Origin: Deltaproteobacteria bacterium
Lineage (GTDB): Bacteria; Desulfobacterota; Binatia; UBA1149; JAJCZL01
Length of the DNA stretch: 64,000 nucleotides
Assembly (NCBI GenBank): GCA_029262415.1
Contig: JAJCZL010000056.1
Location: 123,819 to 187,818 of the forward strand
Reading direction: 5' to 3'
The translations under genes and the position numbers were made by a program. The notes under the pieces were generated by a model. That model saw nothing but the letters and a program-made list of their open reading frames with translations, searched no databases and was not told the origin of the DNA. Within the stretch, counting starts at the first letter, position 1. The number at the start of each line of letters is the position of its first letter. Positions 1 to 52,442 of this stretch are shown here, piece after piece.

Positions 1-2
1 TC

Positions 3-728
3 AAGAATCCACTCACGCCGATCCAGCTCTCGGCCCAGCGCTTGCGTCGCAGGCTCGGAAAGAAGCTTTCGGGAGCGGACGCCGAGATCTTCGAGGAATG
101 TACGACCACCATCGACCAGCAGGTCGATGAGCTGAAGACCCTGGTCAACGAATTCTCGAGGTTCTCGCACCGTGCAGCGGCGACGATGCACCCCCACTCG
201 CTGGGTGACATCGTCACCGAGACACTTCCCCTTTACCGTCAGTCACGTCCCGATATCGCGTTCCGTTCCGAGACCGCCGACGCGCTGCCCGACGTCTCGA
301 TGAACCGCGACGCCGTCAAACGTGCCCTGATCAACTTGCTCGACAACGCGGTAGCGGCCATCGGTAACGAGCGTAACGAGATCAAAAGAGTTGCTGCCGA
401 GGATGGCGAGGGCTCTCAGGCGGGGAAAACCCCACCGGCGGAAATCATCGTTGTTACGCGTTACGACAAGGGATTGTCTCGTGTGGTACTTGAGGTGGCG
501 GACAGTGGCCCCGGGATTCCGCCCGAGCATCGTGCCCGGGTCTTTGAGCCCTACTTTTCGACCAAGCCCGAAGGTACCGGGCTCGGCCTGGCGATCGTCG
601 CATCGGTCGCGTCCGACCACCGCGCCTATATCAGACTGAAAGAGAACCAGCCGCGTGGCAGTAGATTTATCATAGAGTTCCCGGTCAAACCGGAAGCGTC
701 ACTTGAATCGGAGACGGCGACGTCATGA
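3..728 (+). CDS. NtrY-like two-component sensor histidine kinase, C-terminal part (5' truncated by window edge)
   Basis: Reading frame is open from base 3: KNPLTPIQLSAQRLRRRLGKK (H-box region just after the truncated HE), then N-box LINLLDNAVAAIG, G1 VADSGPGIP, F-box VFEPYFSTK, G2 GTGLGLAIV. Confidence 0.9.
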   Translation, partial: KNPLTPIQLSAQRLRRRLGKKLSGADAEIFEECTTTIDQQVDELKTLVNEFSRFSHRAAATMHPHSLGDIVTETLPLYRQSRPDIAFRSETADALPDVSMNRDAVKRALINLLDNAVAAIGNERNEIKRVAAEDGEGSQAGKTPPAEIIVVTRYDKGLSRVVLEVADSGPGIPPEHRARVFEPYFSTKPEGTGLGLAIVASVASDHRAYIRLKENQPRGSRFIIEFPVKPEASLESETATS

Positions 729-1984
729 CGCAAACAATTCTCGTGGTTGACGATGACCAAAAGGTACGCGACTCAATTGGCGGAGTGCTGCGTGACGAAG
801 GCTTTTACGTCGAGCTTGCATGTAATGGTACCGAGGCGCTTGCCAAGCTCGGGCGCGTCGATCCTCGGCTCGTTCTGATCGATGTCTGGATGCCGGAGAT
901 GGACGGTATCGAACTGCTTGAGCGCATTCGCAGCGCACGCGCCGATTTGCCCGTTATCATCGTTTCCGGCCATGGCAACGTAGAGACTGCCGTCCGCGCG
1001 ACCCAGCTTGGAGCTGTCGACTTCATCGAAAAACCGTTCTCGATTGACGGTCTTCTCAATTCGGTACGGCGTGCGCTCGCGTCTTCGGGCGATGAATTCG
1101 CGGCTGCACCGGCAGCCGGCGGCTCGCCACTTCATGCAGGGGCGGATGACGGACCGACGGTGACCGAACGCACGCTGGCGCGCAGCGTCGTCGGCGGTGG
1201 TCATGGACTGCACAGTGGGGTCAACACCGGGCTGATTCTCCATCCGCTTCCGCCCGGTAGCGGGATCCGTTTCGGCAGGGTGGCCGGCGAAGGCCAGCTG
1301 GATGCCCATGTCGATAACGTCGATTCGACCGGCTATGCGACCACGCTTCATCGTGGGGGAATGACGGTTCGAACCGTCGAGCACTTGATGGCGACACTGC
1401 ACGCCTACGGAATCACCAACCTGTTGGTCAAGGTTGAGGGTGAGGTGCCGATTCTCGACGGCTCGGCGGTCGAATTCTGTGACCTGGTCGAATCGGCAGG
1501 CGTCGAAGAACAAGGCGTAGAGCGAGCAGCGATCCACATTGAAGAAGAGATCCGCATCAACCGCGGAGAAGACGAGTTCATCTCGATCGCGCCGTTTGAC
1601 GGGTTTAAGGTCACCTACGAACTTTCCTACCCGAAACCCGTCGGCGATCAGACCTATACTTTTGTGCTTGATGGGTCGCAGTCATTCCGCGAACAGATCG
1701 CGCCGGCGCGCACCTTCGGCTTCGTCGAAGAAATCCGTGCGCTCGAACGTGCCGGACTCGGTAAGGGCGGAAAACTCGGCAACTTCATCCTCATCGGCCA
1801 GGGGGGGGTGGTCAACACCGAGTTGCGTTTCCCCGAGGAACTCGCCCGCCACAAGATCCTAGATGTGATGGGGGATTCGTATCTTCTTGGTGCGCCGATT
1901 CGCGGAGCTATCCACGCACGCAAAACCGGCCACGCCGCGAACGTGGCATTGATGAAAGCGGTCAACGGGCGTGTCGGGCTCTAA
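725..1984 (+). CDS. lpxC: Response-regulator receiver domain fused to UDP-3-O-acyl-N-acetylglucosamine deacetylase (LpxC)
   Basis: One uninterrupted ORF. Residues 1-118 are a CheY-like receiver (D9-D11 acidic cluster, D53 in VLIDVWMPEMDG, S81, K103 in FIEKPFS). Residues ~145-419 are LpxC (VEHLMATLHAYGITN, PARTFGFVEE, RHKILDVMGD, KTGHAANVALMKAV). Confidence 0.95.
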   Translation: MTQTILVVDDDQKVRDSIGGVLRDEGFYVELACNGTEALAKLGRVDPRLVLIDVWMPEMDGIELLERIRSARADLPVIIVSGHGNVETAVRATQLGAVDFIEKPFSIDGLLNSVRRALASSGDEFAAAPAAGGSPLHAGADDGPTVTERTLARSVVGGGHGLHSGVNTGLILHPLPPGSGIRFGRVAGEGQLDAHVDNVDSTGYATTLHRGGMTVRTVEHLMATLHAYGITNLLVKVEGEVPILDGSAVEFCDLVESAGVEEQGVERAAIHIEEEIRINRGEDEFISIAPFDGFKVTYELSYPKPVGDQTYTFVLDGSQSFREQIAPARTFGFVEEIRALERAGLGKGGKLGNFILIGQGGVVNTELRFPEELARHKILDVMGDSYLLGAPIRGAIHARKTGHAANVALMKAVNGRVGL

Positions 1985-2028: not shown

Positions 2029-2904
2029 CTACTTGAGCCCGACGAAGGTGGGCGCGCGTATGTCTCCGCTTGCTTTGTAGCGGTGCCAACCGTCGCGTCC
2101 GACTGCGGACCGCGGCAACAAACCAATCACGGCTTTGGCGCGGTTACCGCCATCTGCGTTGCGCGCACGGACTTCGGCGTTGATCTTGGTCTGGCCAGTG
2201 GGCGCTGAGAATATCCGCCCTTTAGTCAGTTGCCACTCGACACCTTGGCTTGCGGCCGTGCCTTTGGTGAATACAATTTCGCTGCCTTCCAAGCGGGCAT
2301 CGATGACGACATCTTGGAACTCCCATGTACCAAGCGAGGCACCGATCGAGGTGTCGCCTGAATCGTCGCCCAGGTCGGCATCACCGGTGCCGGTCTGCGT
2401 CGAGATGCCCAGCGTTCCGGATAAGGTCCCTCCGCGACCGCGCAGTTCGATGCGACCGCTTTCGGCTATCCGGCCGATCTCACCGTTGCCGGCCCCGCGG
2501 CCCGGTCTCCGTAGCACCAGAGTTCCTGAGAACTTGCCGGCGACGACCAGACCGCCCTGTGCGAGGCAGGCGGCCGGGTTGATGTCGGCGAAGCTTAGGT
2601 CGAGCTTGTCTTCGTGGACGCTACCGTGGATCTCGCCGCCGCAAGCCTCGGCCTCGACCCCATAGCCGCTGCGCCCAATTGCGATCCGTACGTGCTCAAG
2701 CGCGAAATCATAATTACGTCCGTCCAGACGCACGCCGTCGAGTTTGTAGCTGAGCGGGAAGGCGTAGCGCACGTTTTGGATCGAGAGCGCGAGCCCGGCT
2801 TCGGCTGCAGGAGGCGTGAGAGTCGCTTCGATCAGGCGCCGGTGCGGAAAGTGCCATAAGGTGAATACCAGAAGGAGGCCCAGGAAAAGCGCGACGCGTT
2901 TCAT
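2029..2904 (-). CDS. gspN: Type II secretion system protein GspN
   Basis: N-terminal TM segment; FPLSYKLDGVRLDGRNYDFALEHVRI; last gene of a colinear gsp operon. Confidence 0.8.
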   Translation of the reverse strand: MKRVALFLGLLLVFTLWHFPHRRLIEATLTPPAAEAGLALSIQNVRYAFPLSYKLDGVRLDGRNYDFALEHVRIAIGRSGYGVEAEACGGEIHGSVHEDKLDLSFADINPAACLAQGGLVVAGKFSGTLVLRRPGRGAGNGEIGRIAESGRIELRGRGGTLSGTLGISTQTGTGDADLGDDSGDTSIGASLGTWEFQDVVIDARLEGSEIVFTKGTAASQGVEWQLTKGRIFSAPTGQTKINAEVRARNADGGNRAKAVIGLLPRSAVGRDGWHRYKASGDIRAPTFVGLK

Positions 2905-2912
2905 CGTCGCGT

Positions 2913-3467
2913 CTACGCGTCGGCCATGGTAGCCGCAACCATCACGACATCGAAGCGTGATTTGTCATCGTAGCGGCGCTTTAGCTGAAGCTGTTTAATG
3001 TAGACGGGCTTGCCCGATTCTTCGACGCTCTTGAGCACTGTGACGACGGCGCTAAGAGGGACACGCGATAGTCGTAGTTCGACCGACATTTCTTCGACGC
3101 CCGGCTTGAGTTGACGACGGCTCGGGTTCATGGACTCAATGCTTTCCTTGTCCACAGCCGACGCGGTAACGCGATCTACAAACGAGAACAGCGAGAAGTC
3201 GACGTCGGCGTGGGCCCGTCCCGAGGTATGGCCGAGCCTAGCCTGCAAGTCGCGGATATCGCTGCCCGCCTGGTGCATAGCACGGATATCGCTTCTCAGT
3301 TTGCCGAGTCCGCGGTCCATGCGCGTGTGACTATCGATCAGCGGATATACGACCAGCCCGACAAGCGCGACGAAAGCGAGGCAGATACCGAGTAGTGAAA
3401 CGAGGCGTTGCTCGCGCCGACTCAATCGTGCAAACAATGCCGAGACCTGCTCAAGGAGTTGGTTCAC
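2913..3467 (-). CDS. gspM: Type II secretion system protein GspM
   Basis: Short N-terminal cytoplasmic part plus single TM (RLVSLLGICLAFVALVGLVVYPL); position between gspL and gspN. Confidence 0.8.
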   Translation of the reverse strand: MNQLLEQVSALFARLSRREQRLVSLLGICLAFVALVGLVVYPLIDSHTRMDRGLGKLRSDIRAMHQAGSDIRDLQARLGHTSGRAHADVDFSLFSFVDRVTASAVDKESIESMNPSRRQLKPGVEEMSVELRLSRVPLSAVVTVLKSVEESGKPVYIKQLQLKRRYDDKSRFDVVMVAATMADA

Positions 3468-4867
3468 GCTTGTCCCCCTGCGATCTCGGCCAACTTGATC
3501 ATCATCTGAAAGTCCACGCCCTCACCGTTGACGGCTGCACGCACGTCACGTACTTCCACCGAGGCGAACCCGGCGTTGGCCTGGAGAAGTTCCTGCACCC
3601 GCGTGACGGCTTCGAATGAGGAAGCGCGTCCGCTCAAACGCACGTTGGGAGGTTCGTGGAGGTAGCTGTCAAACTCGATGTCGAGGTCTACGGGGATGGT
3701 CTGCGACATGAGCGCAAGCACCCGCAGGGGGGTTGCCGTCGAGCCCCCGCCACCAGCCGAGGCGCGGACTTGCCGGGTGAGTTCGTCGCGCCGCATTTCG
3801 AGCTTGAGACGCCGTCCCGTGGATCCGGTAGCCCCAGGCATGGCGCTTTTAAAGATCGTATCGGCTTGCTGCTCGAGCCTTGCGTGCTCGGAGGAGAGTT
3901 TTACGTAATTGGTGGTGACGGCGGTGACGGTAAGTCCTGCCGCGAGTGCGGCCCAAGGCGCAAGAGGACGCAGCCGGTCGCGCCACTCGTTGGTCTCAGT
4001 CGCAGAGGCTTGGGCCGCGGCGCGTACTGGAAGCTCGACCAGGGGACGGCCACTGTTGCCCGCCACGGCGTAGAGAAGGCCAAGCACGGGAGCTGCGGAT
4101 GTCCAGTGGGTGGAGGTCTGTGCGGTGATCTCGAGTGGGCAGCGGTCGGGCAGGGCCTCGAGGCGGAATTCTGCAAGCAAGTCGGCCAACGCCGGTGCAA
4201 CGCCGGCGACCATCGACCCGCCGAGCACGATGCGTGGGGTTGGCGGGGCCATCGTGCGTATGCTCCAAGCGAGGTTACGGACCAGGACGGCTGTTGGACA
4301 CATACCCACGACGCGGAGTGAGTCGAGTTTGCCGAACACAAAAGACGCGAGTACGGCACCGTCGGGGCTGACATCGATAGCCGTATACGAAGACTCGGTC
4401 CCCAGGGTCCTTCGGTAGACCTCAGCGATCGCGGTTGGGGCCCAAATGAAGCGTTGCGGATTCACCTCGTATTTGGCGAGCGCTTCGCGGTGCTCGTCCA
4501 GCGTTGCATACGGTACCAGTAGGCCGAGAATCTTGCCGCGCTTATCCTGGGCCGCAAAATCCCAGGCGGCTACGCACTCGTCCAGACTCATCGGTACGTG
4601 TTCTTCCAGTGCCGGCCCGACGGCCTGGTCAAGCCGCCGTTTGTCGCGGAAGGCGAACTCGAGCAGACGAAAACTTGCTGCCGTGGAAGGGACGGTGGCG
4701 ATGACGCGGTCGTAGTCGTGCTTTGGCAACAAACGCGAAAGCGTCATGGCCCGGTCGCGCTCGATGTCGAGCAGCGCGTCCACTCGCAGCGAGCGCAGAG
4801 TAGATTCCGCGGTTGCCACGCAAAGCCGGGCCGAGGTTAAGTGTACGGCGAGAATCCGATTAGCCAT
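3464..4867 (-). CDS. gspL: Type II secretion system protein GspL (PilM/actin-like fold)
   Basis: PilM/GspL-like N-terminus, LLEFAFRDKRRLDQAVGPALEEHVPMSLDECVAAWDF; position in gsp operon. Confidence 0.82.
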   Translation of the reverse strand: MANRILAVHLTSARLCVATAESTLRSLRVDALLDIERDRAMTLSRLLPKHDYDRVIATVPSTAASFRLLEFAFRDKRRLDQAVGPALEEHVPMSLDECVAAWDFAAQDKRGKILGLLVPYATLDEHREALAKYEVNPQRFIWAPTAIAEVYRRTLGTESSYTAIDVSPDGAVLASFVFGKLDSLRVVGMCPTAVLVRNLAWSIRTMAPPTPRIVLGGSMVAGVAPALADLLAEFRLEALPDRCPLEITAQTSTHWTSAAPVLGLLYAVAGNSGRPLVELPVRAAAQASATETNEWRDRLRPLAPWAALAAGLTVTAVTTNYVKLSSEHARLEQQADTIFKSAMPGATGSTGRRLKLEMRRDELTRQVRASAGGGGSTATPLRVLALMSQTIPVDLDIEFDSYLHEPPNVRLSGRASSFEAVTRVQELLQANAGFASVEVRDVRAAVNGEGVDFQMMIKLAEIAGGQA

Positions 4868-5910
4868 CAGCGCCGGCGTAAGCCGCCTCCAGGCAGAAGT
4901 GCGTTGAGTTCATCGAGGCTGTTCCTGGCTGAATCGTCGGACGCGGGCAGGTTCGGCCCACGCCGCCGCGTCCAATAGAGTAGCTGGATCCGGCCACCTT
5001 CGCGATGCAGCAGCGCCTCAACACTACGGTAGGCACCACCGGCGCCGGCCGTAGAACGCACGCGGAAGTATTCGCTCTTGACGTCGGCAATCTTGTCGAG
5101 TTCTACGCCCTCCAACCCCTCTATCTCACCGACCTCTTCGAGTTTCTTGAACGGGGCGGTGTCTCTGCGAGCCAGAAAGCGGTTGAGCACCACCGGGTCA
5201 CGCAGTTGCTGGATCATCGCGCTGAGCACTTCGGGGGGAGCGGTGTTCACGTTGATTGATTTGGTTTTACTGGGGGTTACCGAGGCAACTGTTCGCAGTC
5301 TCACGAGATCTGAGGGTTCCACGCCGCGGATCAATGCGAGTTCGGCGAACGTGCGCAGATACCCGTTACGCGCAGCGTGGGGCTGAGGGAGTCCGAGGTA
5401 GTAGCTGTTCTCGGCACCTTCCGGCACCGGGAAAGTCGTCGAATCATCGTCGATCCAGTCGATGATCGAGCCGATCAGCGCGGTATCCACCTCGACGGAG
5501 CGAAACAAACGTTCCGCGCGTTCACGCTCCTCCAGGCGGCGGGAGCGCAGCCTGTTCAGGTCGTACAGGCCGCTGTCGTCTTGGATGCGAAAAGTAAGCG
5601 ACACATCCTCCTCAACCGGGATAGGGATCTCGGAGGCTGCCCACAACTCGCCGAGATGGTCGATCTTGCGCAAGTCCGGCGCGGTAGCGTAGGCGCCGAA
5701 GCCATCCAGGGATAGAAGTTCCGAGGCGAAGAGGAGACCGGACTCGGCGAGCAGGCCGGCACGTTTGGCGTTGATCCATTGGGCGGTGCGGCGTGCCTCG
5801 ACTTGGGTCCGGAAGGTGAACTGCATGACGATCACCGTCAGTAACGCCGTGGCCAGAAGTGCGGTCAGCAGTGCAACGCCGCGCTCGGATGAGGTGGCTG
5901 GGGTCTTCAC
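4867..5910 (-). CDS. gspK: Type II secretion minor pseudopilin GspK
   Basis: GTG start at 5910 overlaps the gspJ stop (GTGA). Begins VKTPATSSERGVALLTALLATALLTVIVMQF; GspK-like helix-hairpin region SINVNTAPPEVLSAMI. The listed ORF begins further upstream (6042). Confidence 0.88.
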   Translation of the reverse strand: MKTPATSSERGVALLTALLATALLTVIVMQFTFRTQVEARRTAQWINAKRAGLLAESGLLFASELLSLDGFGAYATAPDLRKIDHLGELWAASEIPIPVEEDVSLTFRIQDDSGLYDLNRLRSRRLEERERAERLFRSVEVDTALIGSIIDWIDDDSTTFPVPEGAENSYYLGLPQPHAARNGYLRTFAELALIRGVEPSDLVRLRTVASVTPSKTKSINVNTAPPEVLSAMIQQLRDPVVLNRFLARRDTAPFKKLEEVGEIEGLEGVELDKIADVKSEYFRVRSTAGAGGAYRSVEALLHREGGRIQLLYWTRRRGPNLPASDDSARNSLDELNALLPGGGLRRR

Positions 5911-6644
5911 TGGATCGTCGCCGCGGCCAAGTAAGCAGCCGAGACGAACTCCGCTTCGGGTCCCTCGGCCGCGGCAAGGCGCAGTCGGGTTTGCACGATA
6001 ATGGGGGCACGACCGCCATCGGCTCCCACATCCGACTGCCAATCGCTTTGCCAGCCGCCGAGTGGGGCCCTCATGCGCAGAGAAAGACCGCGCACGTTGT
6101 GGGCTATCACTGAGCGAAGCCCGGCTTCTTCGATCTGCGAAGTGGGCGGTCGCATCTCATAGCGGACCAACTGAAGCTCTTCGGATGATGGGTCGAAGGC
6201 GCGGCTATTGAAGTCGCTGTCCGGCCTTTCGAGCCTGTAGACGATACGGGTGAGGTCGCCGCGGTCGATGCCGAACGGCGGGGGAGCCCCGATGCCGTCA
6301 AGCGGGGTGGTCCCGCGTGACGATAACGCGGTGAAGTCGAGGACCACCACAGCGGTGTCGGTCGATGACATTTCGGCGTCCCCGTCAGCGAAAAACCGAG
6401 GCGGAGGGGGGTCGAATTCGTTACCGAAAGCGCCGGTGGCGAACGTACCTCCAAGGTCTTCTTCGATGAGATCGACTGCACGGCGGCCGGCTGCAAAGAC
6501 CGCAGCGCGGGCTTGCGCGTAGTCACGGGTTGCCACTGTACGTGAGAACGAGCCGAACAGCGTGGTCGCGATCACTCCGAGAATCGCCACAGCGACGAGA
6601 ACCTCGAGCAGGGTGAACCCGGCTTGCGCACGGCATGCGGTCAT
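5907..6644 (-). CDS. gspJ: Type II secretion minor pseudopilin GspJ
   Basis: Prepilin N-terminus AGFTLLEVLVAVAILGVIATTLFGSF. Confidence 0.88.
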   Translation of the reverse strand: MTACRAQAGFTLLEVLVAVAILGVIATTLFGSFSRTVATRDYAQARAAVFAAGRRAVDLIEEDLGGTFATGAFGNEFDPPPPRFFADGDAEMSSTDTAVVVLDFTALSSRGTTPLDGIGAPPPFGIDRGDLTRIVYRLERPDSDFNSRAFDPSSEELQLVRYEMRPPTSQIEEAGLRSVIAHNVRGLSLRMRAPLGGWQSDWQSDVGADGGRAPIIVQTRLRLAAAEGPEAEFVSAAYLAAATIQ

Positions 6645-7117
6645 TGAAATCCCGTCGGCCGCATGAAGAACCGTAGGCTGACCAACGGTCTCGACCTGTC
6701 GTCGGCCAGCCAGACACTCACTGTGACGTCGCGAAGCGTAGGTGCGAAGCTCGCCTGAACCAACGACTTCCAGAGGAAACGATCGGCCCCGGGCAGCGAC
6801 TCATCTTCGTCCTCGCCGAAGCCAGGGAGAACGAACTCCTCTGTGAACTCGCCTTCTTCCTCGCCGATTTTCGGGAAGGGGCCGGTCTTGATGAGCGCAA
6901 CCCGGTGGCCGGCAAGCATGGCGGCAGTCGTCATGTCTTGCGTTTCAGAGACGAGCTTTAGGTTGCGCGCCTGCAGTCCGAGCAAGCTCACCATGGCGAC
7001 GCCGAGAATCGCCACGGCGACGAGGATCTCGAGCAGCGTAAAACCGCGTTCGCCGACCGCGGTGGCTCGGCTGGATGCGAGCGGAGGTTTGAATCTCAGG
7101 TTCACCGGGCTCTCCAC
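6641..7117 (-). CDS. gspI: Type II secretion minor pseudopilin GspI
   Basis: Prepilin N-terminus ERGFTLLEILVAVAILGVAMVSLLGLQARNL. Confidence 0.88.
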   Translation of the reverse strand: MESPVNLRFKPPLASSRATAVGERGFTLLEILVAVAILGVAMVSLLGLQARNLKLVSETQDMTTAAMLAGHRVALIKTGPFPKIGEEEGEFTEEFVLPGFGEDEDESLPGADRFLWKSLVQASFAPTLRDVTVSVWLADDRSRPLVSLRFFMRPTGFQ

Positions 7118-7632
7118 TCGGGACTGTGATGCTTGACCGACGTTTGGCCCGTAAACGAGTCATAGGTCACTACGTAGGAGTCTTCACCGGAGACGAGCGT
7201 GATCGATATCGGCAAACCACCGCCTTCCGGAGTGAGGTAAACCTGCGCCTGACCTGCATTCTGTTCGGCGGTTTCTGTTCTCACCGATGCAATCTCTACC
7301 CCCAGCGGCAACACCCCGGGTTTCGCGTACGGGTCCCAGTCCTCGGCGAACCCACCGGCAAGCTCCCCTTCGGCGTAGGGTACATGTACGCGGATGTCCC
7401 AGCTTTCACGTTCGAGGTCGAAGTCGATGCGATAGGTACGTCCGCGTAGCGCGGCTTCGTCGGAAAGGTAGCTGATTAAGGTAGCCAGGCGGTCGGCTCC
7501 TGCCTCTGCGCGTGTCGCCGTTAGGTCGGGGAGACGTGGCAGGACGATCACGAGCATCAGGCCGAAGATAAACAGCACTACGCTGATCTCGATCAGAGTG
7601 AATCCGGCCTGCGAACGCGGGTGGCCAGTCAT
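7102..7632 (-). CDS. gspH: Type II secretion minor pseudopilin GspH
   Basis: Prepilin N-terminus QAGFTLIEISVVLFIFGLMLVIVLPRL. Confidence 0.88.
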   Translation of the reverse strand: MTGHPRSQAGFTLIEISVVLFIFGLMLVIVLPRLPDLTATRAEAGADRLATLISYLSDEAALRGRTYRIDFDLERESWDIRVHVPYAEGELAGGFAEDWDPYAKPGVLPLGVEIASVRTETAEQNAGQAQVYLTPEGGGLPISITLVSGEDSYVVTYDSFTGQTSVKHHSPEWRAR

Positions 7633-7646
7633 TGCCAGGGGCGTGG

Positions 7647-8096
7647 TCAGAAGTCCCGCGAGTCGATGTCTGCGTCCAGTCCGTCGCCGCCTTCTTCGCC
7701 GTCGGCGCCGAGCGAGCGGAGCACGTAGCTTTTGGAATCGCCCGCGTACAAGAATTCATTGTCCCACGGGTCTAACGGAACTCGTTCCAAGTAACCGTCT
7801 TCGCGCCAGTTGCGCGGTATGCGGCCGGTTGTGGGTTGGACGACGAGTGCCTCCAATCCCTGCTCTGAGGTCGGATAGGCTCCGGAGTCGATTCGATAGA
7901 GGTTCAGAGCCTCTTCTATCGCGCGTATATCGGCCATTGCTTTGACTAGGCGCGCTTCGTCGGTGCGTCCGATGATCCGCGGGGCCGCCAGGGAGATGAG
8001 CAACCCTAGGATCATGACCACCACGAGGATTTCGATCAGCGTGAAGCCGCGTTGGAGCGAGGGTCTTCCCATTGTTTTGGCCATTGCTCGGAGCAT
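7647..8096 (-). CDS. gspG: Type II secretion major pseudopilin GspG
   Basis: QRGFTLIEILVVVMILGLLISLAAPRIIGRTDEA...DSGAYPTSEQGLEALV...YLERVPLDPWDNEF. Confidence 0.95.
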   Translation of the reverse strand: MLRAMAKTMGRPSLQRGFTLIEILVVVMILGLLISLAAPRIIGRTDEARLVKAMADIRAIEEALNLYRIDSGAYPTSEQGLEALVVQPTTGRIPRNWREDGYLERVPLDPWDNEFLYAGDSKSYVLRSLGADGEEGGDGLDADIDSRDF

Positions 8097-8097
8097 C

Positions 8098-9342: not shown

Positions 9343-9410
9343 CCAATAGGTAGTCTACGGTGGGACAGGGGGGCGCCGCAACGCGGCACGTCGGGTTCCT
9401 TGGAGCCTGG

Positions 9411-11111
<1,701 letters not shown>

Positions 11112-11143
11112 GGCGACCGACGGCGTATCGGATGCGGGACGGT

Positions 11144-20306: not shown

Positions 20307-20834
20307 ATGAACACAAAAATTCCTGCATTTATCACATCCTCTCTGGTCGCCGCTGCGGCGCTTGCGATTCCCGTGTCCGCCGGCGCACAGGACATCAAGA
20401 TCGGCTACATCATTACTCAGCGCTTGATTGCGGAGTCGCAGATCGGCCAGGGCGCAGCCGAAGAGCTGAAAAAGAAGATGGAATCGGCGAACTCGGGCCT
20501 CCAAGACAAACTCGCCAACATCAAGGCGCTTGAACAGGACTTGGAAAAACGCTCGATGGTCCTGAGTGACGCCGAGCGCAAGAAGGCCGCCGATCAGCTC
20601 GAGAAAGAACTGGTTGAAGCAAAGCGCATGAAGGAAGACTTCCAGCGTTCGTTGCAGAAAGCCGAGGGGCAGGTGATGGGCAAGGTAAACGTGTTTTTGC
20701 GCGAGGTGATTGAAGACTACGGCAAAGCCAACGGTTACGATCTCATCCTTGACGCGTCTACGCTGCTGTACATCTCACCAAAGCCGGATCTTACCGATCA
20801 GGTCATCAAGATGGCGGACAAGAAAAAAAGGTAG
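20307..20834 (+). CDS. skp: OmpH/Skp family periplasmic chaperone
   Basis: ATG at 20307: MNTKIPAFITSSLVAAAALAIPVSAGAQDIKIGYI; long coiled-coil; DLILDASTLLYISPKPDLTDQVI. Confidence 0.88.
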   Translation: MNTKIPAFITSSLVAAAALAIPVSAGAQDIKIGYIITQRLIAESQIGQGAAEELKKKMESANSGLQDKLANIKALEQDLEKRSMVLSDAERKKAADQLEKELVEAKRMKEDFQRSLQKAEGQVMGKVNVFLREVIEDYGKANGYDLILDASTLLYISPKPDLTDQVIKMADKKKR

Positions 20835-20838
20835 CCGG

Positions 20839-21624
20839 TTGCCCGAATCGACGCATATCCACGAAACGGCGATCGTCGAGAAAGGCGCGGAGTTAGACTC
20901 CGGCGTCATCGTTGGCGCGTATGCGATCGTCCACGCCGGAGCGCGGGTCGGTGCGGGGACGACGGTTGGACCCCACAGCGTGATCGAGGGATCGGTTACG
21001 CTCGGTCGTAACAACCGGGTTTCGCAGTTCGCCTCGCTCGGTTCCGAACCCCAGGACCTCAAGTACAACGGAGAGCCGACCCGTGTTGAGATCGGCGATG
21101 ACAACACCATTCGCGAGTTCACGACCGTCAATCGCGGCACCGAAGGCGGCGGTGGGATTACCAACATCGGTAACAGCAATATTTTGATGGCCTATTCCCA
21201 CGTTGCGCATGACTGCCATGTCGGCAGCAGCGTCGTGTTAGCCAATTGTGCGACGTTGGCGGGGCATGTTACGATCGAGGACTACGCTGTGGTCGGTGGC
21301 TTGGCCGGCATCCATCAATACTGCAGGATTGGGACCTCGGCCATGATCGGTGGAGCTTCTGCGGTGGTTCAGGACGTGCCGCCGTTTTGTATGGCGCACG
21401 GCAACCACGCCGATCTGCGCGGCCTGAACGCGATCGGTCTGCGGAGGCGCGGCTTCACGGCCGAGCAGATCAAGGAAGTCCGCGCGGCCTATAAGATCCT
21501 GTTCCAAAAGGGGCTCAAGTTGAAGGATGCCATCGAGACGTTGAAAAGGGATTTCGCCGGTTCCGAGCCCGTTCAGACGATGGTCCGTTTCGTCGCTGGA
21601 TCCGAACGCGGAATCGTCCGTTGA
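20839..21624 (+). CDS. lpxA: UDP-N-acetylglucosamine acyltransferase LpxA
   Basis: Hexapeptide left-handed beta-helix; IHETAIVEKGAELDSGVIVGAYAIV; YSHVAHDCHVGSSVVLANCATLAGHV; GLNAIGLRRRGF. TTG start at 20839 proposed. Confidence 0.93.
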   Translation: MPESTHIHETAIVEKGAELDSGVIVGAYAIVHAGARVGAGTTVGPHSVIEGSVTLGRNNRVSQFASLGSEPQDLKYNGEPTRVEIGDDNTIREFTTVNRGTEGGGGITNIGNSNILMAYSHVAHDCHVGSSVVLANCATLAGHVTIEDYAVVGGLAGIHQYCRIGTSAMIGGASAVVQDVPPFCMAHGNHADLRGLNAIGLRRRGFTAEQIKEVRAAYKILFQKGLKLKDAIETLKRDFAGSEPVQTMVRFVAGSERGIVR

Positions 21625-21637
21625 GCGAATCATACCG

Positions 21638-22465
21638 ATGGATCACATCGGTCTAATTGCAGGCAACGGGAGTTTTCCGGTTCTATTCGCACGCGAGGCG
21701 AAGTCGCGCGGAATTCGGATCACCGCTGTGGCACATCGTGGAGAGACGCTTGAGGCGTTGGTAGCGGAAGTCGATGCGCTAACCTGGGTCCGGGTTGGTC
21801 AACTCGGCAAGATGATATCGGCGTTTAGGCGCGCGGGGATCACCCGCGCGGTGATGGTCGGTGGCCTCAATAAGGTTCATTCACTGCGCTCTTTTCGCCC
21901 CGACTGGCGCGGTATTCGATTCCTTCGGCGTGCCGCGGGAATGGGCGACGACGTTCTTCTGCGCACCCTTGCGTCCGAGTTCGAGTCTGATGGCATTGAG
22001 ATTGTGCCCTCGACGATATTTCTCGACCGCATCGTCGCAGCGGCCGGACCTATCGCCGGACCGAAGCCCAATCCGGCTGCGTTCGACGACATACGGCTCG
22101 GAGCGCGCGTCCTCGAGACCACCGGGGTGCTCGACGTTGGACAGTGCGTCGTTGTCGAAGGCGGCGTCGTTCTTGCGATAGAAGCGGTCGAGGGCAGCGA
22201 CGCGGCGATTGCGCGCGGCGGCGCGCTCGGTCGCGGTGCCGCGGTGGTCGTCAAAAGAGCCAAGCCCGGCCAAGATCTCCGCTTCGATGTCCCTGCGGTT
22301 GGCGCAAAAACAATGGAAACAATGCACGCATCGGGAGCGACCACGCTGGCAATTGAAGCCGGGTCGACAATCATATTGGAAGGCGACCGGTTCTCCGTAT
22401 TGGCCGATCGCTACGGTATCGCCGTGGTCGGCTGCGATGCGCACGGAGAGCTCAGCGATGGGTGA
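21638..22465 (+). CDS. lpxI: UDP-2,3-diacylglucosamine pyrophosphatase LpxI (DUF1009)
   Basis: IGLIAGNGSFPVLFAREAKSRG; MVGGLNKVHSL; position between lpxA and lpxB. Confidence 0.9.
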   Translation: MDHIGLIAGNGSFPVLFAREAKSRGIRITAVAHRGETLEALVAEVDALTWVRVGQLGKMISAFRRAGITRAVMVGGLNKVHSLRSFRPDWRGIRFLRRAAGMGDDVLLRTLASEFESDGIEIVPSTIFLDRIVAAAGPIAGPKPNPAAFDDIRLGARVLETTGVLDVGQCVVVEGGVVLAIEAVEGSDAAIARGGALGRGAAVVVKRAKPGQDLRFDVPAVGAKTMETMHASGATTLAIEAGSTIILEGDRFSVLADRYGIAVVGCDAHGELSDG

Positions 22466-23408
22466 TGCTGTTCGTATGGGCGTTGTCGGCGTCGGTTATC
22501 TCGGCGGGCTACATGCCTCGAAATACGCGCAGATCGAGAACGTCGACCTGGTCGGTGTGTTCGATCTCGACCGCGCACGAGCAGAGAAGGTCGCCGCGGA
22601 CTCGGGCGCGCGTGTGTTCGACAGCGCTGCAGAGCTTTACGCGGAAGTTGAGGCGGTGAGCATTGCGGTGCCGACAGTGCACCATCTCGAAACTGGGCTT
22701 GCTGCCTGCGAGCGGGGCATTCACATCCTGATGGAGAAGCCGCTGGCGAACAACCCCATCGACGCGCGGCGCCTGCTCGAAGCCGCCGAACAGGCGGGTA
22801 TTGTCATGCAGGTTGGTCATCTCGAGCGATTTAACCCGGTCTTTCGTGGACTGCGCGAACTCGTGCGGCGCCCGCGTTTTATCGAATGCCATCGCCTCTC
22901 GCCGTTCGCCGGCCGCGGGGGAGATACCAACGTCGTTTACGATGTTATGATTCACGATCTCGATCTGATCGATTTCCTCGTTGGCGACGATCTCGTCGAG
23001 GTCGAAGCGATCGGGGTACCGGTGCTTTCCCGTGAGATGGATATCGCGAACGCGCGCCTCAAGTTTGCGGGCGGCTGCATAGCCAACGTGACGGCGAGCA
23101 GGGTCTCACTCAAGCGTGAGCGTAAGCTAAGGATCTTCGAACCCGAGGCCTACGTCTCGGTGGACTTTGACGGTGGGCGCGTGGTGATCGCGCGTCGTAA
23201 GAACAGTGCCGATATCGAACCGAGTGTCTCTCCGATGGAGTCGGTGTCGGTAGAGGAGCGAGAGGTTGGCGCCGGCGACGCCCTACTCGAAGAGCTTCGA
23301 TCTTTCGTGCGCTGTGTGCGGACGGGCGATGCCCCGGTTGTCGGTGCAGGCGAAGCCTTGCGGGCGATCGAAACCGCCGAGCGCGTCGTCGGTGCGATCA
23401 AGGCATAA
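22458..23408 (+). CDS. Gfo/Idh/MocA family NAD(P)-dependent oxidoreductase (GnnA-like candidate)
   Basis: GVVGVGYLGGLHASKYAQ, EKPLANN, GHLERFNPVFRGL, YDVMIHDLDLIDFLV; lies between lpxI and lpxB. ATG at 22458. Confidence 0.88.
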   Translation: MGDAVRMGVVGVGYLGGLHASKYAQIENVDLVGVFDLDRARAEKVAADSGARVFDSAAELYAEVEAVSIAVPTVHHLETGLAACERGIHILMEKPLANNPIDARRLLEAAEQAGIVMQVGHLERFNPVFRGLRELVRRPRFIECHRLSPFAGRGGDTNVVYDVMIHDLDLIDFLVGDDLVEVEAIGVPVLSREMDIANARLKFAGGCIANVTASRVSLKRERKLRIFEPEAYVSVDFDGGRVVIARRKNSADIEPSVSPMESVSVEEREVGAGDALLEELRSFVRCVRTGDAPVVGAGEALRAIETAERVVGAIKA

Positions 23409-23424
23409 GGAACACCGTCGCGGC

Positions 23425-24552
23425 ATGCACAAGCGGATCATGATCGTGGCCGGTGAGGCTTCGGGTGACGCGCACGCTGCGCTTCTGGTACGCGCGATGC
23501 GCGAACGTGCGCCCGCGTTGTCCTTTTACGGCGTGGGCGGTGACAAGATGCGCGCAGCAGGAGTTGAGACGCGGGTTGACGCCCACGATCTTTCGATCAT
23601 GGGATTCACCGAGGCGGCACTGGGTCTCCGCCGCGTGTGGGGTCACTACAAAAAGCTTTCGGCAGACTTCATCTCGGCTAACCCACCCGACATGGTTATC
23701 TTGGTCGACTTCCCTGAATTCAACTTGGTGATGGCCAAAGCTGCGAAGAAGGCAGGCATTCCAGTGTTCTACTACGTCAGCCCGCAGGTTTGGGCGTGGC
23801 GGCAGGGGCGGGTTCGCAAGATAGCCGATCGCGTTACCCGCATGGTGGTGCTGTTCCCTTTCGAGAGAGATCTCTATGGCGAATTCGGGCTGGACGTCCA
23901 TTTCGTCGGCCATCCGCTTGCCGAAGACGTTCGCGCCGACCGTGGCCGCGCGGAGACCCTTGCGCTGCACGGGCTGCCCGACGATCGCCGTTTGGTGACG
24001 CTGCTCCCGGGAAGTCGGGCGAAAGAACTCGAAGCAAATTTCCCGGTGATGCTCGAGGCGGCGGCGCGGCTGCGCGGGGAAGCGGCATTTGCCGTCGCGC
24101 GCGCCCCAGGGCTGGCGCCGGGTCTGGTAGAGCGGTACGTCGCGCGGGTTCCGCAGGCGAATGTCGCGATCGTAGACGCTGATACCTATAATCTGGTGTC
24201 GGCGAGTGACGCGGTTGCGGTAACTTCGGGGACCGCGACCGTCGAGTGTGCTTTGATTGGGGTCCCCATGGTAGTTTTGTATCGAATGTCGCGGACAACT
24301 TACTTGCTCGCTAAGTTGCTCGTGAAGTCCCCTTTCATTGCAATGCCTAACATTGTGCTCGGTCGCGAGGTGGTTCCTGAACTCGTGCAATCCGAAGCCA
24401 ATGCGGACAACGTCGTGGTGCAAATACAGCGCCTGCTTGACCCGGTCATTGGCTCGCAAGTCAAGGCTGGGCTGACCGCAATGCGCGACATGATCGTACT
24501 GCCCGGCGCAGCAGGGCGCGCGGCAGAGCTGGCACTGGAGGTTGTCGCTTGA
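23425..24552 (+). CDS. lpxB: Lipid-A-disaccharide synthase LpxB
   Basis: MIVAGEASGDAHAALLVRAM; YYVSPQVWAWRQGRVRKI; FVGHPLAE; LLPGSRAKELEANFPVML. Confidence 0.96.
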   Translation: MHKRIMIVAGEASGDAHAALLVRAMRERAPALSFYGVGGDKMRAAGVETRVDAHDLSIMGFTEAALGLRRVWGHYKKLSADFISANPPDMVILVDFPEFNLVMAKAAKKAGIPVFYYVSPQVWAWRQGRVRKIADRVTRMVVLFPFERDLYGEFGLDVHFVGHPLAEDVRADRGRAETLALHGLPDDRRLVTLLPGSRAKELEANFPVMLEAAARLRGEAAFAVARAPGLAPGLVERYVARVPQANVAIVDADTYNLVSASDAVAVTSGTATVECALIGVPMVVLYRMSRTTYLLAKLLVKSPFIAMPNIVLGREVVPELVQSEANADNVVVQIQRLLDPVIGSQVKAGLTAMRDMIVLPGAAGRAAELALEVVA

Positions 24553-26309
24553 GCGCTTGGTCTGTCATGCGGCGGATCAGCAGGTACCTGGGGCCGTACT
24601 GGTGGCCGCAGTTTACGATGGCTCTGGTCTGCATGGTGGCCTACAGCGCTACCTCGGGGGTCATTCCCTACATCGTCAGATCGCTGGTCGATGACGTTTT
24701 CCAGAGCGGCAACGCCGAGCGCTTGAAGATGATCCCGTTGATGATCCTCGTTGCGTTCTCGTTTCGCGGGATGGTTAGTTTCGGCCAAATTTACTTGAGC
24801 GAATGGGTCGGACAGCGCATTACTTTCGACCTACGACGCGACATCGAGACCAAGACGCTCGGGCTTCCGCTATCTTTCTTCGACACGGCGCGAACGGGCG
24901 ACCTCCTTTCCCGCGTAACGACCGACGTGCTTCTCGTACGTCAGGCGCTCACCGAAGGTGCAGCCGCGATTATCCGTGATACTACGACGGTCATCGTTTT
25001 AGTGCTGGTGGCTTTCTATCTCGACCCGGCGCTCGCGTTGATCACGTTTCTAGTTTTCCCGTGTGTGGTGGTACCGCTGCAGGCGCTGTCGCGACGAATG
25101 CGCAAGTTGAGCGAAGAAGGTCTGGGGACGCTCGGCAATCTATCCGGCCTCTTGCAGGAGACCATACAGGGTAATCGTGTAGTCAAGGCTTTCGGAATGG
25201 AGGACTACGAAGCCGGACGTTTCGAGGCCGAGAACGAGAGATTACTGGCCTACTACCTACGAGCGGCGAAGATCAAGGCGTCGACGACCCCGATGATGGA
25301 GTTCTTCGTCGCTCTTGGTATCGCGGCCGTGTTGTGGTTCGGCGGAAATTCGGTGCTGTCCGGTGGCCGTACGGCCGGTGGCTTCATGGGCTTTGTGACT
25401 GCTGTGATGTTGATCTACGACCCGTTCAAGAAAGTCGTGCGTGCTAATAACAGTGTGCAGTCCGGTCTCGGCGCGGCCGACCGCGTCTTTGCGATTCTCG
25501 ATACCGCCTCCGAGGTCGAAGAACGGCCTGGAGATCTATCGATCGACAGTTTCGAGGATGCCATTCGCATCGACGGGCTCTCCTTCTCTTACGGGGAGGA
25601 GAGGGTTCTGCATAACGTCTCTTTGGAGTTACCGCGCGGAACAGCGTTGGCGTTGGTCGGACCCAGCGGCGGCGGCAAGTCGACGCTCGCAGACTTGATT
25701 CCACGTTTTTATGAGTACGAGCAAGGCAGCATTACACTCGACGGTGTCGATATACGCAGCATCGGTCTTCGCTCACTACGCGCGATGATCTCGGTGGTCA
25801 CTCAGCAGACGTTTCTGTTCAATGATACGATTCGCAATAACATCGCATACGGCAGCATCTGCGGTAGCGAAGAGAGTCTCGTGGCAGCAGCCAAGGCGGC
25901 CAATGCGCACCGATTCATCGAGGCGCTTCCGCAAGGCTACGACACCGTAGTCGGAGAAATGGGCGTGAGGCTATCTGGCGGCCAGCGTCAACGGCTCGCG
26001 ATCGCACGTGCTCTTCTCAAGGACGCGCCGATTCTTATTCTGGACGAGGCGACGAGCGCTCTCGATTCGCAATCGGAGAGGCTTGTGCAGGGAGCGATCG
26101 AGCGGCTGATGGAGGGACGGACAACGTTGGTTATCGCGCACCGGCTTTCGACGATTCGCAACGTCGATCGAATCGCGGTGGTTGCTTCCGGAGAGATCGC
26201 AGAGTTGGGCACCCACGAGGAGTTGATCGAGAGCGGGCAACTGTACAAACAATTTTATGCCATCCAGTTCGAGGACGACCCGGTATCCGGCCGACACCAC
26301 ACCATCTAG
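24549..26309 (+). CDS. msbA: Lipid A export ABC transporter MsbA
   Basis: ABC exporter TMD plus NBD: Walker A GPSGGGKSTLADLI, signature LSGGQRQRLAIARAL, Walker B ILILDEATSALD; TTG start overlaps lpxB stop. Confidence 0.92.
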   Translation: MSAWSVMRRISRYLGPYWWPQFTMALVCMVAYSATSGVIPYIVRSLVDDVFQSGNAERLKMIPLMILVAFSFRGMVSFGQIYLSEWVGQRITFDLRRDIETKTLGLPLSFFDTARTGDLLSRVTTDVLLVRQALTEGAAAIIRDTTTVIVLVLVAFYLDPALALITFLVFPCVVVPLQALSRRMRKLSEEGLGTLGNLSGLLQETIQGNRVVKAFGMEDYEAGRFEAENERLLAYYLRAAKIKASTTPMMEFFVALGIAAVLWFGGNSVLSGGRTAGGFMGFVTAVMLIYDPFKKVVRANNSVQSGLGAADRVFAILDTASEVEERPGDLSIDSFEDAIRIDGLSFSYGEERVLHNVSLELPRGTALALVGPSGGGKSTLADLIPRFYEYEQGSITLDGVDIRSIGLRSLRAMISVVTQQTFLFNDTIRNNIAYGSICGSEESLVAAAKAANAHRFIEALPQGYDTVVGEMGVRLSGGQRQRLAIARALLKDAPILILDEATSALDSQSERLVQGAIERLMEGRTTLVIAHRLSTIRNVDRIAVVASGEIAELGTHEELIESGQLYKQFYAIQFEDDPVSGRHHTI

Positions 26310-27021
26310 CAGCGGTCGTCACGTACGTGGCTTGCGTAAGGTGGGGTGGTTTGAACGAGCAGAGATAGCACTGCTCGGGACGCTGAGTTGGGCCCTGCTC
26401 GCGTTTCTGCGTTTGACCACAAGAGTGGAACTTCACGGCCATTGCGGGCTCACAGATAGCTGGCGCAAGGGTGAACCCACAATCTTTGCGTTCTGGCACG
26501 GCCGCGCGAGCATGATGACGATGTTTTACAAAGGCTCGAGCGGTGTGATCATGAACAGCAATCACCGTGACGGCCAGATCGTCTCGGTTGCTCTGCGCCG
26601 CTTTGGGCTGCGGACGATAGGCGGGTCGAGCTCGCGTGGTGCGGTAGGCGGGATGCGCGGGCTTTTCCGCGCTTTCAGCCAAGGCAACGACGTTGCTCTT
26701 GTGCCCGACGGTCCACGCGGGCCGGCGGGTGTTGCAAAACCCGGTGCGGTCGAGCTAGCGTTGCGCAACCGTGCGCTTCTTTACCCGGTTGCCGCCAGCG
26801 CGACACGCGCGATCCGCTTCCGTGGTTGGGATCGCATGATGCTGCCTACGCCCGGTGCTCGCGTGATCGTTGTTGTGGGAGAACCAATTGTGCCTCCGCA
26901 GGTCGAGAAGGGCGCGTTCAAGGCGGCGCGCGAAAGTTTGAGCGCTGAACTCGAGGCGCGATTGGCCGAGGCATGCCAAGAGGCCGACCGCATGGCCGGC
27001 CGTGACCAGGAAGAGACTTGA
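26257..27021 (+). CDS. DUF374-type lysophospholipid acyltransferase superfamily protein
   Basis: FAFWHGRASMM, SNHRDGQIVS, GGSSSRGAVGGMRGL, LVPDGPRGP. True start probably downstream of 26309. Confidence 0.85.
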   Translation: MPSSSRTTRYPADTTPSSSGRHVRGLRKVGWFERAEIALLGTLSWALLAFLRLTTRVELHGHCGLTDSWRKGEPTIFAFWHGRASMMTMFYKGSSGVIMNSNHRDGQIVSVALRRFGLRTIGGSSSRGAVGGMRGLFRAFSQGNDVALVPDGPRGPAGVAKPGAVELALRNRALLYPVAASATRAIRFRGWDRMMLPTPGARVIVVVGEPIVPPQVEKGAFKAARESLSAELEARLAEACQEADRMAGRDQEET

Positions 27022-28346
27022 ACCAGTCGCAACTCGGCTTCGGCGGCAGAGTTCTCTATGGGATCTACACTGCGATCGCGACGGTCGTCTCACTCGGCCT
27101 GGAGACCGGGCTACGACTCGGTCTGGTTGACCAGCAAGATCACGTGCGTACTGCCGAACGTACCGGCATGTGGGAGCAGGGCGGCATGGCCGGTTCGGTG
27201 CGTGCGGGAATGGGACTCCGGCCGGTTTGGGTACACGCGGCTTCGGTCGGTGAAGTAACGCTCGCGAAGACCTTGATCGGTGCGCTTAAGCGCGCGCGCC
27301 CCGGCACGCGCGTGCTGCTGACGTGCAACACCGCGACGGGTCGCGAGCTGGCCGATCGCAGCGGGGCCGACGAGGTCCACTATTTCCCGATCGATGCCCC
27401 GCGCGCCTTACGACGTGTGCTGGCGCTTATCCAGCCTGCGTTCGCCGTAGTGATTGAGACTGAGCTTTGGCCTACATTCCTTTTGACCCTCGCTGCTAAC
27501 GGCACTCCGGCAGCCTTGGTCAACGCGCGTATCTCGGAGCGGACATTTCCGCGCTACACCCGCGTCCGAGCGCTGATCGAGCCGATCCTCGGTGCGTTCT
27601 CGGTCGTTTGTGCGCGCGACGAGGTCTCGCGTGGGCGTCTTCTGAAACTCGGCTGCGACCCTGCAGTGCTACATCTGGTCGGCGATCTTAAGTTCGATGC
27701 TTTTGATAGATCGACGGTTGATGAGACCGCAGACTTTCTCGCCGATATTGCTGCGCCGGTACTGGTTGCGGCCTCGACGCACCCCGGAGAAGAGGAACTG
27801 GCGCTCGAGGTCTTTGCGCGGCTTCTGGTAGGGAGAACCTCATTACGCTTGGTTGTCGCGCCGCGGCATCCTGAGCGCGCGCAGCAGATTTTGGCTGTAG
27901 CCGCGGCCCGTGGGCTCGAATCTGTTGCGTGGACCCGGCTTCGCGAAACGCCCGAGACGCAGTGGTCGGTACTCGTTGTCGATACGGTCGGTGACCTGCT
28001 CGGGTTCTTTCGCGGCGCGGTCGGGGTGTTCTTGGGCGGGAGCTTTACAGGTTTAGGTGGGCACAATCTTCTCGAGCCGGCGGCATTCGCTAAGCCGATC
28101 GTTTGCGGCCCGCATCTGTCGAATGTTGCGGCAGTAGCCCGCGATCTCACCCAGGCCGGTGCGCTTCAGGTAGTCTCGGATCTAGCCGGGCTCGAAAGTG
28201 TCTGGCGTGGATGGCTGGACGACCCCGATTCCGCTGTAGCTGGCGGTCAGAGCGGCCGCGCGGCTATCGAGAACAACCGCGGCGCGCTCGAGGCGACGAT
28301 TGCTTTGCTCGAGCCGTTTGTTCCGGCTCTCGAACCGGCTAGGTAA
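27018..28346 (+). CDS. waaA: 3-deoxy-D-manno-octulosonic acid (Kdo) transferase WaaA
   Basis: VWVHAASVGEVTLAKTLI; IETELWPTFL; VNARISERTFPRY; FLGGSFTGLGGHNLLEPAAF. Confidence 0.95.
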   Translation: MNQSQLGFGGRVLYGIYTAIATVVSLGLETGLRLGLVDQQDHVRTAERTGMWEQGGMAGSVRAGMGLRPVWVHAASVGEVTLAKTLIGALKRARPGTRVLLTCNTATGRELADRSGADEVHYFPIDAPRALRRVLALIQPAFAVVIETELWPTFLLTLAANGTPAALVNARISERTFPRYTRVRALIEPILGAFSVVCARDEVSRGRLLKLGCDPAVLHLVGDLKFDAFDRSTVDETADFLADIAAPVLVAASTHPGEEELALEVFARLLVGRTSLRLVVAPRHPERAQQILAVAAARGLESVAWTRLRETPETQWSVLVVDTVGDLLGFFRGAVGVFLGGSFTGLGGHNLLEPAAFAKPIVCGPHLSNVAAVARDLTQAGALQVVSDLAGLESVWRGWLDDPDSAVAGGQSGRAAIENNRGALEATIALLEPFVPALEPAR

Positions 28347-28352
28347 AGTAGC

Positions 28353-29510
28353 TTGAGCACGGGAATTGAACGCATCTGGTACGGCTCCGGACCGGCAGCG
28401 ATCGCAGGACGCATCCTGTTGGCGCCCGCGTCGTGGGTGTTCGGACTCATCGCTCTCGCACGCGCAGGGATGTACGCGCGCGGGCTCCTGCGCTCCGAAC
28501 CCGCTGACGCGCCGGTCGTGAGTGTCGGTAACCTCAACGTTGGCGGTACCGGTAAAACGCCCATGGTCGTGTGGCTGGTTGAGCGTCTGCTCAATGCTGG
28601 GTTTCGCCCTGTCGTTGTATGCCGAGGGTACGGCGGCAAGGCCGGACGTCCGGTTGTCGTCGACTTCGATTACTCCTGGAGCCTTCCGCAGGATCTGAGC
28701 CACCGGGTATTTCGCCCGCGCTCGTACTCCGAAGGTCTAGAAGCCGCGGGTGACGAGGCGGTTCTTGTCGCGCGGCGTACCGGGTGTCCAGTCGTGGCGT
28801 TCGCAGATCGGGCGGAGGCTTGTCGCACTGCCTGTGACGCTTATGAACCCGATTGTCTAATCCTCGACGATGGCTTCCAGCACCTCAGACTTCGGCGTGG
28901 ACTTGATATCGTGCTGCTCGGTGAGCGTGACCAAGGTGCGCGCCTGCTCCCCGCCGGGCCGCTACGTGAAAGAATGTCGGCGCTAGCGCGGGCCGATATT
29001 GTCATTCGGACCGCGCCCGACGCGCCGCTGCCCAGGGTTCGCCGTTCGCTCACCGGGCTGGTTGCGCGTCCCGATGCCGACGCGCGGATCGCACCGCTGG
29101 CGAGCCTAGCGGGTAAGCGGATCGCAGTGTTAGCTGCGATCGCGAACCCCGACGGGTTTTTTGCGATGGTGGCCGAGACCGGAGCCGAGATTGTCGTCAA
29201 ACGTACGTTCGCTGACCACCACCCTTATGACGACGATGATTGGGACGACGTATTGCATGAAGCGCGTGCCGCGGGGGCTGAGATGATCGTGACGACCGAA
29301 AAGGATCTGGTGAAACTCGAGCGCGTCGCGGGCAGGACCGATCTCCTACGTGCGGTCCGCTTGTCGCTCGATGTCGAAGGCGGCGATGAGATCATCGCAC
29401 GAATTACCTCACTTGACGCGCGTCACGGCCCAACCCATGATCGCGCGGCCGCACCCGCACCCGCACCCGAGGCCGAGTCCGAAAACAAAGACCAGGGCGC
29501 GGCCACGTAG
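28353..29510 (+). CDS. lpxK: Tetraacyldisaccharide 4'-kinase LpxK
   Basis: VGNLNVGGTGKTPMVVWLVE (P-loop); LILDDGFQHLRLRRGLDIVLL; (GCACCC)3 repeat encodes an A/P-rich tail. Confidence 0.95.
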   Translation: MSTGIERIWYGSGPAAIAGRILLAPASWVFGLIALARAGMYARGLLRSEPADAPVVSVGNLNVGGTGKTPMVVWLVERLLNAGFRPVVVCRGYGGKAGRPVVVDFDYSWSLPQDLSHRVFRPRSYSEGLEAAGDEAVLVARRTGCPVVAFADRAEACRTACDAYEPDCLILDDGFQHLRLRRGLDIVLLGERDQGARLLPAGPLRERMSALARADIVIRTAPDAPLPRVRRSLTGLVARPDADARIAPLASLAGKRIAVLAAIANPDGFFAMVAETGAEIVVKRTFADHHPYDDDDWDDVLHEARAAGAEMIVTTEKDLVKLERVAGRTDLLRAVRLSLDVEGGDEIIARITSLDARHGPTHDRAAAPAPAPEAESENKDQGAAT

Positions 29511-52441: not shown

Positions 52442-52442
52442 T

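Follow-up and report, generated by a model that had tools for sequence, protein, structure and literature searches.

Lipid A synthesis is committed at LpxC, an enzyme under tight control and a target for antibiotics. Response regulators whose output is an enzyme are known, examples being CheB, PleD/GGDEF and HD-GYP proteins. A review of 2025 on how LpxC is controlled deals with transcription, proteolysis, MurA and LapB-type control, and mentions neither a receiver nor a fusion (PMC12444477). The C-terminal tail of E. coli LpxC serves as an FtsH degron, and degrons of this type are reported to be largely limited to Enterobacteriaceae (PMC12444477). MurA, bound to LpxC, directly activates the enzyme (PMC9995270).

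Two-component systems have also been connected to this step. Loss of NtrYX in R. sphaeroides increases lpxC mRNA by 8.8-fold and elevates LPS, through a link that is indirect in that no NtrX site lies upstream of lpxC (PMC7240162). NtrYX is likewise reported to restrain lpxC expression and LPS in Caulobacter (PMC12444477). The only target of the D. vulgaris response regulator DVU2934 is lpxC, and lpxC of S. fumaroxidans is located directly upstream of the operon orthologous to that of DVU2934 (PMC3333781). Fusions of LpxC are known from Bacteroidota and other groups, where the partner is FabZ (PMC3087551). A receiver-LpxC architecture is not described in the open-licence PMC literature that was searched, and domain databases (InterPro/CDART) may list such an architecture automatically.

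A receiver domain and LpxC in one reading frame

The window analysed here is a 64,000-nucleotide stretch of a contig from a genome of 3.9 Mb that is 96.8% complete. Its features are collected in Table 1. The first-pass annotation of this DNA had described one uninterrupted frame carrying both a receiver and a full LpxC. The single frame is borne out, and both domains match their Pfam models far above the curated cut-offs. For the LpxC domain, the scores are 275.8 bits with PF03331 (cut-off 27) and 236.9 bits with TIGR00325 (cut-off 187).

Table 1. Coordinates of features within the window.
Feature	Position	Strand	Comment
NtrY-like sensor histidine kinase gene, 3' part	1..728	+	765 aa in all
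Receiver-LpxC fusion gene	725..1984	+	419 aa, ATG start, no internal stop
Receiver domain, NtrX type	737..1066	+	aa 5-114, PF00072 (Response_reg) 2.1e-31
Predicted phospho-acceptor D53 codon	881..883	+	essentially always D (109 fused proteins)
Interdomain linker, probably flexible	1085..1153	+	aa about 121-143
LpxC deacetylase domain	1169..1963	+	aa 149-413, PF03331 5.2e-82
Catalytic E219 and zinc ligand H220	1379..1384	+	invariant in fused and unfused relatives
H376, K377, D380 (zinc ligands H376/D380)	1850..1864	+	invariant
Catalytic H403	1931..1933	+	just 16 residues after H403
PilN-like/GspL-like gene	3464-4867	-	type II secretion run
GspF	8098-9342	-	type II secretion run
Secretin GspD	11144-13324	-	type II secretion run
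Rest of lipid A/Kdo pathway	20710..29510	+	Pfam matches

All of the residues singled out in that annotation are found as named. The receiver carries the acidic pair (D9/D10), the phospho-acceptor aspartate (D53), the S/T position (S81) and the lysine (K103) of response regulators, and the LpxC part carries its catalytic and zinc-ligand set (E219, H220, T330, H376, K377, D380 and H403). The linker had been put at about 25 residues, which is close to the 27-33 residues estimated here. Among relatives it ranges from 25 to 67 residues and is poorly conserved in both sequence and length. A Pfam scan found no FabZ domain after LpxC, and the LpxC-FabZ model PRK13188 reaches 203 bits against a cut-off of 465, matching through the LpxC part alone.

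The gene for the NtrY-like kinase begins with a GTG codon about 1.57 kb before the window starts (L002:8431), and its product has NtrY_N, HAMP, PAS, HisKA and HATPase_c domains, all five of which score above the Pfam cut-off. The end of this gene overlaps the start of the fusion gene by 4 bp (ATGA, 725-728), and the gene order is yebC-ruvC-ruvA-ruvB-ntrY-receiver/lpxC. A full NtrY-like kinase gene is located directly 5' of the fusion in the Binatia loci examined and in family f66, whereas the fused gene has no adjacent kinase in families f23, f26, f25, f42, f67, f39, f92 and f85. Judged from this arrangement, the adjoining kinase is likely the cognate one.

Downstream in the window, the 20710-29510 run contains lpxA, lpxI, lpxB, an MsbA-like ABC transporter gene, a DUF374 gene, kdtA and lpxK, with lpxI present and lpxH absent from the run. 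The presence of this set shows that lipid A is made by the organism. As the fusion protein is the only LpxC of its genome and these genes are present, its LpxC domain is predicted, and is likely, to be an active deacetylase.

Two other features of the window were observed. A run of type II secretion genes (2029-13324, minus strand) is convergent with the fused gene, and the last gene of the run (2029-2904, minus strand) has no Pfam match. In addition, a tyrosine recombinase gene of the XerC/D-like type (55187-56128) adjoins a gene for a GlnD-type uridylyltransferase (52326-55169).

Distribution and conservation of the fusion

The circumstances that the annotation had named as refuting its reading include a frameshift or assembly error and a separate, stand-alone lpxC elsewhere in the genome. 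The second is removed for the genome of the window, since it yields a single PF03331 match. Concerning the first, a survey of 59 genomes, including the window's own, found a near full-length, single-frame fusion in 56, with relatives 48-75% identical, and four independently named public contigs (L003-L006) also encode it in a single frame. The recurrence of single-frame fusions across so many genomes and contigs rules out this concern.

Within the class, which is apparently Binatia, as the relative L003 is named Candidatus Binatia, LpxC was found in 143 of 147 genomes. An open frame of at least 405 aa is present in 135 of them (G309, which has an internal TGA, is counted here), four more are fused but truncated by a contig end, and for G058, G339, G359 and G381 the N-terminal side of lpxC is cut by, or lies too near, a contig end to judge. 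One genome (G364) has an unfused LpxC in addition to the fused one. Almost all genomes of the class have receiver-LpxC as their single LpxC. Outside the class, about 16 further family codes of the phylum contain receiver-LpxC or a longer receiver-AAA+-LpxC form, a Syntrophobacterales record (L006) among them. In most remaining members of the phylum, lpxC is unfused and encodes about 310 aa.

Some genomes depart from these patterns. Fused and unfused LpxC occur together in G104, G259 and G364 (L217/L299, L227/L125 and L143), which could reflect contamination, transfer or real second copies; L227 forms a very long branch (1.59). Seven nearly complete genomes of family f55 (G132, G164, G192, G218, G242, G264 and G285) have no LpxC match, and possibly make no lipid A or use a very divergent enzyme. 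An in-frame stop or frame break lies inside the fused lpxC of L301 (G309) and inside the receiver-AAA+-LpxC gene of L207 (G159); these breaks are sequencing errors or real.

Conservation of both active sites was surveyed in 109 fused proteins (98 receiver-LpxC and 11 receiver-AAA+-LpxC), which correspond to about 51-53 effectively independent sequences after redundancy weighting. D9, D10, D53, S/T81 and K103 of the receiver are essentially invariant, as are E219, H220, T330, H376, K377, D380 and H403 of the enzyme, and most of the few departures come from gaps or from ends that are misaligned. A 73-sequence alignment has D9, D10, D53, K103, E219, H220, H376, K377, D380 and H403 as invariant positions. 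The receiver residues are also retained in the orphan lineages that have no adjacent kinase. Such conservation of the phosphorylation site argues that the receiver is useful, because a useless one would have decayed.

Origin from an NtrX-type regulator

The receiver was initially thought to resemble that of NtrX, as if LpxC had taken the place of the AAA+ and HTH output domains. Both parts of this proposal hold up. The best NCBIfam receiver model is that of NtrX (NF051870), which matches the window protein with 137 bits over aa 4-120 only. NtrX proper is recognized by more than 600 bits and by AAA+ and Fis/HTH domains, and the Pfam scan of the window protein found no AAA+ domain. From this partial match and the missing domain, the protein is not an NtrX but derives from one. 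A receiver tree that included NtrX from alphaproteobacteria and from loci with unfused lpxC, together with other NtrC-like receivers, placed the fused and NtrX receivers in one clade (support 98/91); the tree without an outgroup was unresolved. Searching 39 genomes of the class with the NtrX model gave many NtrC-family matches, the best at 423 bits and none above the 600-bit cut-off. An NtrX from elsewhere in the phylum (L232) scores just 475 bits, also below it, and so the cut-off alone is no proof that NtrX is absent.

Synteny and intermediate forms support the replacement of the output domains. Unfused lpxC has an NtrY-like kinase gene as its neighbour in 11 of the 29 loci sampled across the phylum, mostly with a gene for an NtrX-like regulator after the kinase gene; at L232 a DUF4390 gene lies between lpxC and ntrY. 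Unfused loci of family f42 have the order (yebC-ruvC-)ruvA-ruvB-lpxC-gap-ntrY-ntrX, which is the ruv neighbourhood seen in the window. Triple fusions of about 700-780 aa, which we refer to as NtrX-LpxC, combine receiver, sigma54 AAA+ and LpxC domains. They were found at L198-L209 (families f17, f19, f49, f63, f69 and f87) and directly follow ntrY in seven of 12 loci. Their AAA+ domain lacks GAFTGA in 12 of 12 cases and the Walker B DE in most, whereas nearly all NtrX proteins encoded beside unfused lpxC keep both motifs. NtrX-LpxC proteins are therefore not ordinary sigma54 activators, and LpxC is their remaining output. They appear to be intermediates, or else a branch that runs in parallel and whose sigma54 domain is dead.

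In the LpxC tree, one branch with 99% SH-aLRT support splits 65 fused from 37 unfused rows, and a single origin of the fusion is thus sufficient. This tree by itself does not place NtrX-LpxC before receiver-LpxC. The proposed route would begin with an lpxC-ntrY-ntrX neighbourhood in which NtrX and LpxC became fused. The sigma54 AAA+/HTH portion would then have decayed and been lost while receiver and enzyme were retained, shortening the signalling link such that NtrY might use the receiver to act on LpxC itself.

Family f42 contains both arrangements, with fused lpxC at L241, L243 and L245 and unfused lpxC in the ruvCAB-lpxC-ntrY-ntrX order at L295-L298. At L241 the fused gene is beside a YchF-like GTPase gene and no kinase gene is nearby. 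Replacement of lpxC by transfer inside the family is the likely cause.

How the receiver might act on LpxC

AlphaFold modelling of the window protein and a 44%-identical orthologue gave pLDDT values of 90.6 and 89.2, respectively, and a pTM of 0.89 in both cases. The LpxC part matches the LpxC fold of solved PDB structures (P. aeruginosa LpxC, E 3e-32). The linker falls below a pLDDT of 60 in both models, and to about 50 at residues 121-140 of the window protein. For a free-floating receiver, which would make up about 30% of the chain, a pTM near 0.7 is expected as an estimate rather than a computed value. A pTM of 0.89 despite a disordered linker suggests, if indirectly, a defined docking, and the modelled receiver likely has a preferred position on the LpxC domain.

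We favour, with modest confidence, an NtrY-type two-component system in which LpxC is the output of the regulator and phosphorylation of the receiver changes its activity. The membrane-bound NtrY-like kinase encoded by the overlapping upstream gene would sense an envelope or membrane signal and would phosphorylate, or dephosphorylate, D53. The receiver, which a flexible linker tethers to LpxC and which probably docks on it, would then alter LpxC activity post-translationally. Phosphotransfer to D53 from the adjoining kinase and an effect of receiver phosphorylation on LpxC catalysis are both presumed in this scheme. By analogy with NtrYX in alphaproteobacteria, we lean towards restraint of LpxC as the direction of control. 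Post-translational control by NtrY also fits published work in which NtrYX, or another response regulator, governs the transcription of lpxC. Three observations weigh on the other side. The poor conservation of the linker makes rigid allosteric transmission less than obvious, several lineages have a fused gene that does not adjoin a kinase gene, and NtrYX of R. sphaeroides is linked to lpxC only indirectly (PMC7240162).

The receiver could instead set the abundance of LpxC rather than its catalysis, with phosphorylation exposing or hiding a site where a protease (Lon, ClpXP or FtsH) or an adaptor binds and thereby replacing control through the tail. The tails of the fused proteins are indeed much shorter, with a median of 16 residues past the catalytic histidine in 108 fused proteins (at most 32) compared with 45 in 59 unfused proteins. 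The window protein has 16, ending in NVALMKAVNGRVGL, and its tail lacks the E. coli FtsH-degron motif LAXXXXXAVLA. Protease control of LpxC has precedents in the E. coli tail degron and in Lon, which has been implicated for alphaproteobacteria on expression in E. coli (PMC12444477). However, because the E. coli degron is largely enterobacterial, the tails of the unfused relatives are only putative degrons, and the short tail is read here as the loss of a C-terminal extension that was only possibly regulatory. The difference also represents one event on one branch, and control of abundance is judged unlikely. The LapB zinc-ribbon profile (PF18073) does not discriminate as a marker for loss of the E. 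coli-type system: it matched 10 of 14 controls, Bacillus among them, and probably did so by recognizing RadA-like zinc ribbons.

Localisation offers another explanation, in which the receiver anchors the soluble LpxC at membrane-located NtrY. Phosphorylation would free or hold the enzyme and so couple lipid A synthesis to the membrane, with catalysis unaltered. Its kinase is membrane-bound (NtrY_N and HAMP), and the LapB homologue Ght of N. meningitidis has been proposed to place LpxC at the inner membrane (PMC12444477). The existence of orphan fusions without an adjacent kinase runs counter to this scheme, which we regard as improbable. Doubtful to a similar or slightly greater degree is the view that the receiver serves as a passenger, as a phosphate sink or as a reporter of the state of LpxC to NtrY, and that it leaves LpxC unregulated. 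The LpxC catalytic residues would by themselves explain why the enzyme part is kept, but every receiver active-site residue is conserved as well, orphan lineages included, and the receiver was retained where the defunct AAA+/HTH part was lost. Joining of two genes by an assembly or frameshift error is rejected as vanishingly improbable, as uninterrupted homologues occur in over 130 genomes on varied contigs and from varied projects.

Building on the favoured reading, in which phosphorylation changes LpxC activity, a more far-reaching proposal can be advanced tentatively, at somewhat less than even likelihood. In a large group of bacteria, a two-component phosphorelay might directly and allosterically gate the enzyme that commits cells to an essential envelope pathway, its output having moved from lpxC transcription to the LpxC protein through an NtrX-LpxC intermediate and having replaced tail-dependent control. 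That the sole LpxC is a fused protein, in an entire class of uncultured bacteria and in several lineages related to it, suggests an envelope sensor with direct control over outer-membrane synthesis, not by way of genes. If true, the receiver in cis would be a direct switch from kinase to biosynthesis, and this would explain the relation of NtrYX to LPS. The series from neighbouring genes through the triple fusion to the slim fusion would also give a clear instance of a transcriptional circuit that was reduced to one regulated enzyme.

Comparison with known systems

The window protein shares the fold and the catalytic and zinc residues of E. coli, P. aeruginosa and Aquifex LpxC, with about 33-39% identity to PDB structures, but differs from them in its N-terminal receiver, its short tail and its position on a separate branch of the tree. 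With NtrX (NF051870) it has in common an NtrX-clade receiver and a gene that follows that of an NtrY-like kinase, yet it is without sigma54 AAA+ or Fis/HTH domains and its output is an enzyme. CheB, PleD/GGDEF and HD-GYP proteins also fuse a receiver to a catalytic domain, although these make, remove or read signals, whereas the output here is a committed biosynthetic enzyme. Response regulators with an enzyme as output are thus already known, and what appears to be new is that this output is an essential, committed biosynthetic enzyme. The interest of the system is high for this reason and because its evolutionary route is visible.

LpxC-FabZ proteins likewise contain LpxC within a fusion, but they join two pathway enzymes (PMC3087551). 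R. sphaeroides NtrYX (PMC7240162) and DVU2934 (PMC3333781) are, like the present system, two-component systems that bear on the LpxC step; theirs is a transcriptional effect, whereas here regulator and enzyme are one protein. MurA (PMC9995270) and the FtsH-LapB-YejM system of E. coli (PMC12444477) are protein modules that control LpxC post-translationally, as is proposed here for the receiver, and the fusion differs from both in that its module is a phosphorylatable receiver in cis.
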